Shown in pieces: positions 24,113 through 28,431 of a stretch of 30,623 nt of DNA. The DNA is taken from positions 1-30,623 of IMG/VR virus record IMGVR_UViG_3300020392_000052; one strand, 5' to 3'. The notes under the pieces were generated by a model. The model saw only the letters and a program-made list of their open reading frames with translations. It was not told the DNA's origin and ran no database searches. The stretch is from a virus. Made by a program: the position numbers and the translations under genes. Position 1 is the first letter of the stretch. Every line of letters starts with the position of its first letter.

Positions 24113-25299
24113 TATAAATCTCCTAATTTAGTAAGTAAAAGGTCATTAACTTGTTGTGATTTTTCCTTCACAACTATCACTTTTTCAGATGATTGAGGTT
24201 GCATCATGTTATTATTTTTATTGTTGCTTTCATTATTTGAATTAATCACAACAGTTCTCCTTTTTCGTTTTCCAAATTGATTTATATTGTTTATAGTTGT
24301 CATATTTTTATTATTTACTACTGATTTATCTATTTCTATTGTCTTACTTATCTTATTTACTGATAAATTTCCCCCTCTTGGATCAGATTGTTGCAATGAA
24401 CTTGCATCAGGAGTGTTATCTTTAAAATTTTCTAAACTTATATTTAATCCACCTTCTTCATTTAAAAGATTAGTATCTGTTGATTCAAAACTTTCTTGTA
24501 TAGGTCTAGTTGTTGTTGCAGTAACTTCATTTCTTCCCGATAGTCTATCTTCGTATGCGAATTTTTTGATTTCTAATTTGGATTCTGCAAACTCTAATCG
24601 TCTCGCATTTGCTTCAGTTCTTTTTTCATCAAATGCTGCTTGTCGTTTTGATACTTCAGATTGTGCTGCTTCGTATCCACTTTTTAATTCTTCAAGTGTT
24701 TGATCTCTTTTTTCTTCTTTTTTTTCTTCCTTTTCATCTTCTTTTTCTTCCTTTACATTTTCAGGATCAAAATTTTCTAGATCTTTTTCAGTTTCACTTA
24801 GTGATGTATCTATTTCATCTTGTAATTCTTTTTTTGATGACTTTAAGTTTGTGGATGCTATATCTTCATCAAGTTTTTTAAATGGTTGAAACAAATTACT
24901 AAAAAATTTTTTTATATTAGGTATTATATTTTTAAGAAATTCTACGAATCCTTTTATTTTTTCAATAATATTTTCGATTGCTTTTATAAATTTTGGTATA
25001 TTAACAGCTAACCAACCTAAAAATAATTGTTTTATTGCCGACATAATATTAGATCCAAATTTTTTAGGATTAATTTTTTTATTTTTTTTCGGTATTGTAG
25101 GATTATCTTTCTTCTCTAAATTTTGTTCTTTTTGATTTCTTTTTTGTTTTTCTAATCTTTTCTTTTCAAAAATAGATCTAATCTTACTTGTACCTTTTTT
25201 TATAGTTTTAGATTTTTGTATTGATTTTTTGACACCACTAATTATATTTCCAGATTTTGAAAACATTGACTTGCCTATTTTAATTACCGACTCCTTCAT
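24112..25299 (-). CDS. Tape-measure/hub-type protein, second of a pair (395 aa)
   Basis: Very Lys/Glu/Asn-rich. The N-terminus is basic (KKSIQKSKTIKKGTSKIRS and on), then a hydrophobic segment, IKQLFLGWLAVNIPKFIKAI (about 85-105), continues as an amphipathic helix to about 135. A highly charged region (about 150-215, with KEEKEDEKEEKKEEKRDQ) should form a long coiled coil. The C-terminus is Asn-rich with KRKRRTVVI. The LF-(L/V)-GWL motif is shared with the 515-aa protein just upstream, whose stop overlaps this start by 4 nt (ATGA), so the two may be diverged paralogues or parts of one tape-measure system. The gene stands where T4-like phages place hub proteins gp28/gp29. Assignment to a particular T4 gene is not possible from what I can see. 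Confidence 0.6.
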   Translation of the reverse strand: MKESVIKIGKSMFSKSGNIISGVKKSIQKSKTIKKGTSKIRSIFEKKRLEKQKRNQKEQNLEKKDNPTIPKKNKKINPKKFGSNIMSAIKQLFLGWLAVNIPKFIKAIENIIEKIKGFVEFLKNIIPNIKKFFSNLFQPFKKLDEDIASTNLKSSKKELQDEIDTSLSETEKDLENFDPENVKEEKEDEKEEKKEEKRDQTLEELKSGYEAAQSEVSKRQAAFDEKRTEANARRLEFAESKLEIKKFAYEDRLSGRNEVTATTTRPIQESFESTDTNLLNEEGGLNISLENFKDNTPDASSLQQSDPRGGNLSVNKISKTIEIDKSVVNNKNMTTINNINQFGKRKRRTVVINSNNESNNKNNNMMQPQSSEKVIVVKEKSQQVNDLLLTKLGDL

Positions 25300-26843
25300 G
25301 CTAAGTTAAACTCCGATTGGGTTCCCACAAGGTACATATTAGAATTATCTTCTGATGCAAAATTGATTATATCCTCTTCAATTTCACCATAATCAGGTGA
25401 ACCCATTGTCTGACTTTCACCTACGTTTTGATTTTGTGATCCATCAATCACCACCACTTCATCTTCAGGTGCTCCATAATCATATATTTTCTCATTTTTT
25501 TGATTTACTTTAGTTGCATTTGTTGTAATTTTAGAATCTATTTTTGAAGTTTCTTCACCTTCACCAGTGGTGGATTTTTTAACATCTCTTGCTATATTTG
25601 CCACATCAGCTGCAGTTGATATTGCTGTGCCAACACCAGGCACAGTTGATGCAACACCTGAAATTAGTTCAAGACCTGCTCCGAGTAAATCACCTTTTCT
25701 TGCTCTGTCAATCGCAAATGCAGTTCCTAAAACTAAACCAACAAGTGGTATTTTTTTCGCAAGTAATTTACCAGTTCCCTTTTTAACAGCACCTTTTGCT
25801 ACATTTTTACTTCCACTTTTAAGTAATGTTTTACCAAGATTTTTTCCTTTTCCTGCTACGTTTTTTGCTATATTAAGTCCCTTACCTCCTATATTTTTTG
25901 CTATGTTAAGTCCTTTTCCCCCTATATTTTTTGCTACATTAAGTCCTTTTCCTCCTACACCTTTTACTACATTAAGTCCTTTTCCAACTATGTTTTTACC
26001 AAGATTTTTTATTCCTTTACCCAAATTTTTCAACGCACCTGTTGTGGCTTTAGCAAATTTTCCACCTATCTTACCAAATTTTTTAATCATGAAACGAGTG
26101 AATGATTTACCAATTCCTTTTTTATAGATTTTTAATAATTTAAATAAACCTCCCTTCGCTATGAACATTAATCCACCAACTGCTGCAAGTCCAAGAGCAA
26201 CATTTTTTGCTATGCTCCTCAACTTCTCCATATTACCTTCTTGAAAGGCTCTAAACGCTTGTATTCCTTTATCAGTCAACCATCCAACAAATAAAGTTGT
26301 AAAGGCACCTTTTAATTTTTCTAAAAATCCTTTTACTTTTTTAAACCTTTCGACTTGAGGTTTTTCCTCTTCAACTTGTTTTTCTGGTTCATCCCCTGCT
26401 TCCAGTAATAATTCTTTTTTAGCTAGTTTTCTCTTTTCATCTAATTCAATTTTTTCTTTCAGTTCTTCTAAAGTTTTTTTCCTATCTGATTTCTCCTCAT
26501 CAACAATAAATTTTTGAATTTTTTCAATACTTTTTGATACATCATGTATATATTTTTCAATTACACGAACTCTTTTTGAAATACTATCAGGACTATCATC
26601 AACTGCATTTTCTACATCATTAGGATTATATTTAACAATCGGTGCAAATCTTGACAATTCATTACGTCCCATGAATTTATTAAAATTCACTTGTCTACTT
26701 TTAAATGCAATATTAGGATCTGGAGTTCCTCCCCTTGCTTTTATTAATGCGTTTTTATATTCCGGATCCGTTCTTGCTCTAGCTGCATCAACTGGAGCTT
26801 TAGGATCAAATGGTTTTTGTGGTTTTTTAGTTATTCTAGCCAC
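25296..26843 (-). CDS. Probable tape-measure protein (gp29 position; 515 aa)
   Basis: The start is GTG at 26843, 8 nt inside the end of the 58-aa ORF. Residues about 80-165 are charged and helical. TLFVGWLTDKGIQAF (near 184) matches the LF-x-GWL element of the next protein. A hydrophobic helix IAKNVALGLAAVGGLMFIAKGG (cut: about 212-232) is followed by a Gly/Lys-rich array of 11-residue repeats (GKGLN-(V/I)-AKN-(I/V)-G, about 286-331) and a second hydrophobic segment, IPLVGLVLGTAFAIDRARKG with LISGVASTVPGVGTA (about 364-405). Hydrophobic helices plus helical repeats directly after a tail-assembly-chaperone-like pair are what a tape measure shows. T4 gp29 has 590 residues. The protein would set tail length and perhaps be ejected into the host envelope. 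Identity as gp29 is inferred from position and character, not from clear similarity. Confidence 0.6.
   Translation of the reverse strand: MARITKKPQKPFDPKAPVDAARARTDPEYKNALIKARGGTPDPNIAFKSRQVNFNKFMGRNELSRFAPIVKYNPNDVENAVDDSPDSISKRVRVIEKYIHDVSKSIEKIQKFIVDEEKSDRKKTLEELKEKIELDEKRKLAKKELLLEAGDEPEKQVEEEKPQVERFKKVKGFLEKLKGAFTTLFVGWLTDKGIQAFRAFQEGNMEKLRSIAKNVALGLAAVGGLMFIAKGGLFKLLKIYKKGIGKSFTRFMIKKFGKIGGKFAKATTGALKNLGKGIKNLGKNIVGKGLNVVKGVGGKGLNVAKNIGGKGLNIAKNIGGKGLNIAKNVAGKGKNLGKTLLKSGSKNVAKGAVKKGTGKLLAKKIPLVGLVLGTAFAIDRARKGDLLGAGLELISGVASTVPGVGTAISTAADVANIARDVKKSTTGEGEETSKIDSKITTNATKVNQKNEKIYDYGAPEDEVVVIDGSQNQNVGESQTMGSPDYGEIEEDIINFASEDNSNMYLVGTQSEFNLA
25851..25985. repeat. Tandem 33-nt repeats in the tape-measure-like gene
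   Basis: About four units of 33 nt, each encoding GKGLN-x-(V/A)-K-x-x-(G/A). The plus-strand units contain 'aagtcc(c/t)tt' and 'attttttgcta'. An 11-residue period suits an amphipathic helix with a hendecad pattern. Confidence 0.8.
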
Positions 26844-27012
26844 TTTGTTGTTGACGTTTTAAATTTTCCTCTTCAATATACTGTTGTAATAATGAAATAT
26901 AAATTTCCTTTTCCCAAGGAATCATATTTTCAAGTTCAGTTATTGAGTATTTATGATGTTGCATCAAGGCAAAATTCAACTTATAGTATGACTCAAGACT
27001 TGTATGAGCCAT
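26836..27012 (-). CDS. Small tail-assembly-chaperone-like ORF, possible frameshift extension of gp26 (58 aa)
   Basis: The ORF reads MAHTSLESYYKLNFALMQHH, then KYSITELENMIPWEKEIYIS and LLQQYIEEENLKRQQQSG. It is helical, with the Y-x-x-NFALMQHHKYS-I-x-x-LE-x-MIPWE pattern that I recall in short ORFs next to gp26 in marine T4-like phages. The ATG is only 2 nt after the gp26 stop. The frame is also open upstream of the ATG (R-V-G) back to a slippery TTTTTTC in gp26, so it can be made as the C-terminal part of a gp26 fusion of about 298 residues by a -1 shift, or alone by reinitiation (a weak GAG lies 5 nt before the ATG). Its last 8 nt overlap the GTG start of the tape-measure-like gene. Position and size resemble the T part of lambda G/GT. 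Confidence 0.7.
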   Translation of the reverse strand: MAHTSLESYYKLNFALMQHHKYSITELENMIPWEKEIYISLLQQYIEEENLKRQQQSG

Positions 27013-27042
27013 ACCTACTCGAAAAAATCTGATAATCCCTCT
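27002..27042 (-). promoter_or_regulatory. Candidate -1 programmed ribosomal frameshift site
   Basis: On the minus strand, in order: AGAGGG (27042-27037), a 9-nt spacer, the heptamer T TTT TTC (27027-27021) aligned with the gp26 reading frame as GAT TTT TTC GAG TAG, a 6-nt spacer, then GTATG-GCT-CATAC (27014-27002), a 5-bp hairpin with a 3-nt loop. The heptamer fits X XXY YYZ, and the upstream purine box is placed as in the E. coli dnaX signal. After the shift the frame reads CGA GTA GGT ATG and enters the 58-aa ORF. The hairpin is short and AT-rich, so its contribution is uncertain. Confidence 0.65.
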
Positions 27043-27731
27043 AAGATTATTTTATTTTTCACATTTGTTTTTGGATTTAATACCTCAACAGTGTATGACA
27101 ATTTAGGCATAGAGTCAAAGAAATACTCAACCTCTTTAAATTGTTTTGAATTAAGTTGTTCTATAAATTCTGTAAGTTCTTTTTTTGAACAATCAGACGC
27201 AGACCATGATTCTTCTTCATTATACACTTGATCAATACATGATGTGATTAAATCAAATGATTCCTTTAATCCCACCTCATTTGGATTAAAGTTTGAATTA
27301 ATAAATTGTGAGAGAGATGGATACTTCATTCTCATTTTTAAATTATCATCCAGTATAATATCCTTTGTGTGTTTAGAGTCTTTAACGATTTGTATGTCAT
27401 CAAGAGGAATATTTACAGCAACTTTAGTTTTATTATCATCTGGACAAGTAACTAATACTTCTACCTCTTCACCAACTGATTTTCCTCTTATATTTAAGAA
27501 CAAATACTCCATATCAAAGGTTGATAGATGATCTACTTTTACACCTCTTGTTAAGATACAACCACTAATTACATCCTTAATCGCATTGGTGATTTGTTTT
27601 ATATCCTCAGACTCTAGTGCAATAATAAGTATTTTTTCTTCTTTTACAAGAAATGGTCTGTATCTTATCTTTTTTCCAGTTGACGGAAGAACCAATTCAT
27701 AGGTCGGTGTTTTTATTTTGGGTAATGGCAT
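27015..27731 (-). CDS. gp26: gp26-like baseplate hub assembly protein (238 aa)
   Basis: The protein matches the T4 baseplate gp26 family in its form: an N-terminal PTYELVLPSTGKKIRYRPFLVKEEKILIIA segment (cut: PTYELVLPSTGK, then YRPFLVKEEKIL, residues 9-35), then a helical LESEDIKQITNAIKDVISGC, FDMEYLFLNIRGKSVGEEV, and a Cys-containing VTCPDDNKT hairpin. T4 gp26 has 208 residues. The protein acts in assembly of the central hub; by position ahead of the tape-measure-like genes it also resembles a tail assembly chaperone. Its last codons carry the slippery heptamer described separately, so two products are possible: 238 aa and a longer fusion. A late-promoter-like CATAAATA precedes the gene; no clear ribosome binding site is seen. 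Confidence 0.75.
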   Translation of the reverse strand: MPLPKIKTPTYELVLPSTGKKIRYRPFLVKEEKILIIALESEDIKQITNAIKDVISGCILTRGVKVDHLSTFDMEYLFLNIRGKSVGEEVEVLVTCPDDNKTKVAVNIPLDDIQIVKDSKHTKDIILDDNLKMRMKYPSLSQFINSNFNPNEVGLKESFDLITSCIDQVYNEEESWSASDCSKKELTEFIEQLNSKQFKEVEYFFDSMPKLSYTVEVLNPKTNVKNKIILEGLSDFFE

Positions 27732-27750
27732 AATAATATCAAATGTATTT

Positions 27751-27758
27751 TATTTATG
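27751..27758 (-). promoter_or_regulatory. Late-promoter-like CATAAATA upstream of gp26
   Basis: Minus-strand CATAAATA, 19 nt before the gp26 ATG and overlapping the last codons of the gp54-like gene. The 13-mer CATAAATAAAATA is identical to the one before the 1992-aa gene. Confidence 0.55.
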
Positions 27759-28431
27759 TGAGTAATCGAAGTAAAGATGAAGTGAAATTTTCACTGTTTC
27801 CAAACTGTCTACTTAAACTTGTAGATTTTCCACAAATGTATCTTGTATACGCAAACTCCACACTCATCTTTAAAGTATCAGATGATCCATATTGAACAGG
27901 AACAGATGACATGTTTCTAGGGAACATCTCATAAAATGTGTACTCTATTGAGTCCTTATAATCACGATCAAACTTAACTAATTTTATTTTATCACATTTA
28001 TATCCATTTGCTGGATCTTTGGGATATCTCATTCGATAATAATATCCATCTTGATCCTTTGAAACACCTGAGTTCTCTGAACCATTTGAAACATAGTCCA
28101 TCCAATGTTCCATAAACTTCAGCATTTTATACTGTTTATCAACATAAAAATCAAGATTAATTGTTGTAAATATTCTACTATGAACCATGGGTTCAATCAC
28201 ACCCATGAAATTACCTCTGGTCTCTGTAGTTGCTAATTGACTTCCGGGTAAAGAAGCATTACTACACAATAAACCTGCGTTTCTCAATACAAAAGCACGA
28301 TCAACATTCTTACTACTCAAAAATCTTCTTAATCCCTCTGACAATCCATCAAAAGATAGTTCGTAGTGAGATGTTTGTGCAGTATTTGCAACTATTCCAA
28401 TATAATCAGTTATTTTTCTCTTTGTTATCAT
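27754..28431 (-). CDS. gp54: Tail-tube-fold baseplate protein, probable gp54 tube initiator (225 aa)
   Basis: The sequence shows the tail-tube fold shared by gp19, gp48 and gp54: LLCSNASLPGSQLATTETRG (about 55-74), TTINLDFYVDKQYKMLKFMEHWMDYV cut as LDFYVDKQYKML and F-x-x-HWMDYV, YYYRMRYPKDPANGY, FYEMFPRNMSSVPVQYGSS and the final strand LKMSVEFAYTRY. T4 gp54 is about 320 residues, so this version is shorter, mainly at the N-terminus. The first gene of the leftward unit, it is preceded by NATAAATA boxes and followed by gp26. With the gp48 homologue on the other side of the divergent gap, the most likely role is the tube initiator that sits on the hub. A second tube-like hub protein is the alternative. 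Confidence 0.6.
   Translation of the reverse strand: MITKRKITDYIGIVANTAQTSHYELSFDGLSEGLRRFLSSKNVDRAFVLRNAGLLCSNASLPGSQLATTETRGNFMGVIEPMVHSRIFTTINLDFYVDKQYKMLKFMEHWMDYVSNGSENSGVSKDQDGYYYRMRYPKDPANGYKCDKIKLVKFDRDYKDSIEYTFYEMFPRNMSSVPVQYGSSDTLKMSVEFAYTRYICGKSTSLSRQFGNSENFTSSLLRLLT

Follow-up and report, generated by a model that had tools for sequence, protein, structure and literature searches.

A candidate frameshift cassette at the end of gp26

How is the short reading frame that follows gp26 in this marine T4-like phage translated: as a protein of its own, or as an extension of gp26? We addressed this in a window of 30,623 nt, the whole stretch of DNA analysed (IMGVR_UViG_3300020392_000052). 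All coordinates are positions in this window, and the cassette genes all lie on the minus strand.

27754-28431, minus strand: tail tube-like gene, upstream of gp26 (PF23849, E 1.6e-18; phrog_45, E 4e-36)
27015-27731, minus strand: gp26 gene, 238 aa, T4_baseplate family, including the TAG stop at 27015-27017
27037-27042, minus strand: AGAGGG within gp26, Shine-Dalgarno-like, 9 nt ahead of the heptamer
27021-27027, minus strand: slippery heptamer T TTT TTC
26836-27020, minus strand: -1 frame extension, RVG plus the 58-residue gp51-like sequence after the predicted slip
27012-26836, minus strand: 58-residue gp51-like ORF (ORF2), in the -1 frame relative to gp26
27005-27015, minus strand: 5' arm (GGTATGGCTCA) of an 11-bp stem, starting 5 nt past the heptamer
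26985-26995, minus strand: 3' arm (TGAGTCATACT) of the same stem, pairing with 27005-27015
25296-26843, minus strand: 515-aa ORF after the cassette, a tape measure by position only

Judging from sequence, this locus very probably uses a -1 programmed ribosomal frameshift to make a short and a long form of a tail assembly chaperone. Profile searches assign gp26 to PF12322 (E 2.3e-72) and phrog_150 (E 4.9e-76), and the 58-residue ORF to phrog_634 (E 6.2e-28), a family whose annotation is gp51, "hub assembly catalyst"; the PF12322 and phrog_634 matches span the full domains. At the 3' end of gp26, TTTTTTC stands in X XXY YYZ phase (GAT TTT TTC), with GAG TAG coming next; an open -1 frame begins 34 nt ahead of the gp26 stop and runs into the 58-residue ORF. 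A preliminary description of this stretch had read AGAGGG, 9 nt, an in-frame T TTT TTC, 6 nt and a hairpin GTATG-GCT-CATAC, with the -1 frame open into a 58-aa ORF across the junction F-R-V-G-M-A-H; all of these elements were found on the minus strand at that spacing, and the open frame and its junction are as described.

What is seen in the sequence is the heptamer, its phase, the open -1 frame, their conservation, relatives lacking a start codon, the internal Shine-Dalgarno, a covarying stem and the fusion in T4 gp51; from this we infer slippage, its efficiency and the chaperone function. Most ribosomes would stop at the TAG and release the 238-aa gp26, equivalent to the G form of phage lambda, while a fraction would be held by the GAGGG upstream and the 11-bp stem downstream. 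Held ribosomes would slip one base back on T TTT TTC and produce a predicted gp26-gp51 fusion of 298 aa (junction SDFF-RVGMAH), the counterpart of lambda GT. On the lambda model, the two proteins may coat the tape measure, recruit tube subunits and then depart.

The preliminary description had also placed the cassette before tape-measure genes. Profile searches with the 515- and 395-aa ORFs gave no match to any tape-measure family, and the gene downstream of the cassette is a putative tape measure from its position. The 515-aa ORF holds a tandem 33-bp repeat (4.6 copies, 25845-25997), giving GGKGLN(V/I)AKNI repeats.

Conservation of the slippery heptamer

Relatives were retrieved only by their similarity to gp26, a choice that does not favor loci with the heptamer. 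TTTTTTC occurs at the same place and in the same phase in 81/81 of the nearest loci. T6N is present in 323 of 324 readable loci (N is C in 240, T in 53, A in 28 and G in 2), as well as in 58/58 more distant loci, 6/7 isolates and 3/3 large Straboviridae (Aeh1, 65 and S13). In total, 390 of 392 readable relatives, with gp26 identity down to ~25%, carry an in-phase T6N followed by a second ORF in the -1 frame, which supports the fusion of gp26 to the 58-residue ORF that had been proposed from this one sequence. It is this conservation that weighs most in showing the site to be real. As a measure of chance, the 9808 codons of the window contain 6 in-phase T6N heptamers, of which the copy at 27021-27027 alone falls in the last five codons of a gene. 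In 29 of the 323 T6N loci the 0-frame stop is shifted ~20 nt downstream, with heptamer and -1 frame unchanged. One clade with a 0-frame stop ~20 nt later (L278, L293, L308 and relatives) has a gp26/tail overlap of about ten codons and another stem (GCCTCT/AGAGGC).

The codon before the FF of the junction always ends in T, whether it encodes Ser, Asp, Asn, Ala, Gly or Thr, whereas FF pairs elsewhere in gp26 are written T TTT TTY in only 5 of 288 cases. The constraint is therefore on the nucleotides and not on the protein.

Since the site is a T homopolymer, which reaches T7 in some relatives, a fusion might also be produced by RNA polymerase adding or dropping bases on the T run. At most slip sites the run has only six T before a C or A, a short stretch for polymerase slippage; moreover, it is ribosomes that respond to signals such as an exact X XXY YYZ phase, a conserved Shine-Dalgarno at 9 nt and a covarying stem placed 5 nt past the slip site. 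We regard transcriptional slippage as the least probable of the explanations considered, with hardly any weight beside ribosomal frameshifting.

The T6N heptamer is absent in two distant lineages, Vibrio phage K357 and the Ackermannviridae phage SD25, which have a TAATG overlap instead; these are the only losses found, and even there the frame remains -1. In both Vibrio phage K357 (L089 1440-1700) and Vibrio phage SD25 (L405 1600-1820) a gp26-family protein, its PF12322 match having been tested for K357, is followed by a -1 ORF. They may represent a third solution, by re-initiation, or possibly a non-canonical slip site (ACTTTTC, CGTTTTTC).

Start codons of the tail ORF

A ribosome stopping at the TAG could instead re-initiate at a nearby ATG, in which case two separate proteins would be made, the stem would hide the ATG from other ribosomes and the heptamer would be incidental. 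The window does have such an ATG, at 27012-27010, about 2-3 nt past the gp26 stop and inside the stem, and a separate 58-aa product may arise here. Annotators label the tail as a separate gp51 gene, and the TAATG overlaps of the two lineages without the heptamer are in keeping with coupled translation. Against this, the ATG is not conserved in relatives, as opposed to the heptamer and the -1 frame, a comparison that the preliminary description had suggested as a check. Many of the loci are near-copies of one another, and the distinct junctions number 256. In 85 of these, the open -1 frame contains neither ATG nor GTG nor TTG before the conserved core is reached, and yet heptamer, frame and protein are kept; a further 30 lack an ATG. 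The start-less junctions span several clades (syn9-like cyanophages, Methylophilales phages, relatives of Pseudomonas phage pf16, and Aeh1), and ordinary initiation therefore cannot explain the conservation of ORF2 there. Furthermore, the ~24 nt between the Shine-Dalgarno and the ATG are too many for initiation, and the spacing from the Shine-Dalgarno to the heptamer stays constant even where there is no ATG; the coding frame of the tail is invariably -1 with respect to gp26; and T4 carries an in-frame fusion. With this evidence on both sides, we consider translational coupling very improbable as the general explanation, and retain -1 frameshifting.

The lack of a start codon also accounts for the state of deposited annotations, which cut or omit the gp51 tail (L083 1671, L084 1650, L093, L087, L419, L420): gp51 is truncated in syn9 and Melnitz and unannotated in S-CAM1, ACP17, Aeh1 and S13.

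Stimulatory elements

The internal Shine-Dalgarno is visible as a GAGGG at positions -14 to -10 from the heptamer. Codon usage is biased at this position, with Glu encoded by GAG in 73% of cases versus 31% elsewhere, and Gly by GGG in 28% versus 9%. Pairing to the anti-Shine-Dalgarno is strongest at the GAGGG in all classes of loci, including those in which ORF2 has no start codon.

Downstream, the 11-bp stem has a minimum free energy of -14.7 kcal/mol (z -3.9). Over 64 distinct near relatives it is 90.6% paired, compared with 23-47% when slid, and it contains 33 double-changed cells versus 13.9 in shuffles. Almost all of this covariation comes from one pair (UA 28, GC 22, AU 9), in which a synonymous third base (GCT/GCG/GCA, Ala) follows a Glu/Ala/Val codon; its state changes ~14 times on the tree. 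A rate-corrected covariation test did not reach significance, the well supported branches holding just 2-3 independent pairs, and RNAalifold on the near alignment alone gave only the 3 central pairs of the stem.

The hairpin of the preliminary description, a 5-bp GTATG-GCT-CATAC at 27014-27002, 6 nt past the heptamer, does exist and shares its 5' arm with the 11-bp stem; as a stimulator it was rejected, being 73.8% paired with no covariation, and its closing pair being kept in 18 of the 64 near relatives. It is probably the wrong stimulatory structure, given that the 11-bp stem is more stable, conserved and covarying.

A single structure common to all clades was also considered and discarded: over all relatives the 11-bp stem is 59.7% paired, so that it is clade-specific, and distant clades show other stems or none obvious.

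Two genes in T4

T4 gp26 and T4 gp51 both match PF12322, the former at residues 1-206 (215.6 bits) and the latter at residues 1-201 (177.5 bits); in gp51, the C-terminus is in addition recognized by phrog_634. A hidden Markov model built from the -1 tails alone recognizes residues ~200-250 of T4-type gp51 and no gp26 (best E 2e-8; T4 itself is weaker, 2e-4), and a model of gp26 alone recognizes both gp26 and gp51. When the sequences are aligned, T4 gp26 stops at the slip site and T4 gp51 runs on. T4 gp51 is thus a gp26-like domain with the same tail in frame, and T4 has two paralogous genes for the two forms, gp26, which ends at the slip site, being the short one and gp51 the long one. The preliminary description had seen in gp26 plus the small ORF the T4-like counterpart of lambda G/GT; this correspondence is supported, with the amendment that T4 itself uses the paralogous genes 26 and 51.

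Genes 26 and 51 are divergently transcribed in T4 and several relatives, and in tandem in RB43. In RB43 (L401 1301-2594) the gp51-type and gp26-type genes overlap on the same strand, possibly a duplication intermediate. T4 gp26 (L094 6306-6929) also matches the gp28 family phrog_1140 (E 9e-4), and gp28 is possibly another distant relative. On a phylogenetic tree, which is unrooted and includes several long rows, T4-type gp26 and gp51 group together, separated from all frameshifting phages by a branch with 100/98 support, and this placement fits a single duplication. Large Straboviridae such as Aeh1, and Vibrio schizoT4 phages, retain the frameshift arrangement. We give an even chance to the following scenario: the -1 frameshift is ancestral and still the dominant source of the long chaperone across the T4 superfamily; it was replaced once, in the lineage of T4, RB43, Krischvirus and Acinetobacter phages, by a duplication in which one copy acquired the tail in frame; and the ratio of short to long form depends on the internal Shine-Dalgarno and the covarying stem.

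This arrangement bears on an earlier survey, in which cyanophage and vibriophage gp51 lacked the first ~200 residues and Aeh1 had no gp51 (Sullivan et al. 2010; PMC3037559). In Aeh1 the heptamer is present as well, and the -1 ORF after it has no start codon. We suggest that the frameshift explains both observations: with gp26 supplying the rest, cyanophage and vibriophage gp51 resembles no more than the final fifth of T4 gp51, and Aeh1 seems to have none.

Structural support for a proposed chaperone role

Among known structures, an AlphaFold2 model of gp26 (pLDDT 87.5) is closest to the tail assembly chaperone of HK97 (2ob9, Z 7.9), followed by 3fgx (Z 7.8) and YqbN (3klu, Z 7.1), the last of which we take to be an XkdN-like chaperone; unrelated chains score Z 4.1 and below. 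The modeled fold supports the view that gp26 is a tail assembly chaperone like that of HK97. Since the best Z is just under 8 and the match is restricted to the first ~90-96 residues, this role is supported rather than proven. Foldseek alone, run with the gp26 model, gave no match below E 0.4, and a fold search with a T4-type gp51 model gave no chaperone match.

Comparison with known systems

In the E. coli dnaX cassette an internal Shine-Dalgarno, the heptamer A AAA AAG and a hairpin follow one another in this order. The cassette described here has the same order of elements at similar distances, but the dnaX protein is unrelated and its heptamer differs.

A frameshifted tail chaperone is not a new idea, and its core is already published for T4-like phages, as far as the citing papers convey. 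The preliminary description knew of no such account for gp26 of these phages, and a literature search under the gp26 and gp51 names found no direct description of the frameshift; two papers nevertheless credit Vladimirov, Gautam and Davidson (2022; Virology 566:9-15), one for the finding that in T4-like phages the gene for the short form contains poly-T slippery sequences (PMC12846349), and the other, on PRFect, for the presence in some of these phages of two genes, one short and one a long fusion (PMC10885494). As represented there, the T4-like tail assembly chaperones of that work are the same genes as gp26/gp51. Relative to that work as known through the citing papers, the present analysis is broader and adds a test for start codons, an internal Shine-Dalgarno and, in place of the 5-bp hairpin, a covarying stem. 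With the core idea already in print, its value lies mainly in breadth, in mechanistic detail and in annotation repair. In hundreds of deposited genomes the tail is annotated as a gene of its own, is cut short or is missing.

A close parallel is lambda G/GT (Xu, Hendrix and Duda 2004; reviewed in PMC5009743), in which a short protein and its -1 extension follow the tail tube gene; the tail tube-like gene of the window holds the same place before gp26. The slippery site here is T6N, and no sequence similarity to lambda emerged. Atkins et al. 2016 (PMC5009743) named T4 as the exception to an otherwise widespread conservation of G-T frameshifting. T4 indeed lacks the frameshift, and its genes 26 and 51 correspond to the two products of the cassette, gp26 to the short form and gp51 to the long one. 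Frameshifting and gene duplication would be interchangeable routes to the same two proteins, of which the T4 superfamily offers a clean example.
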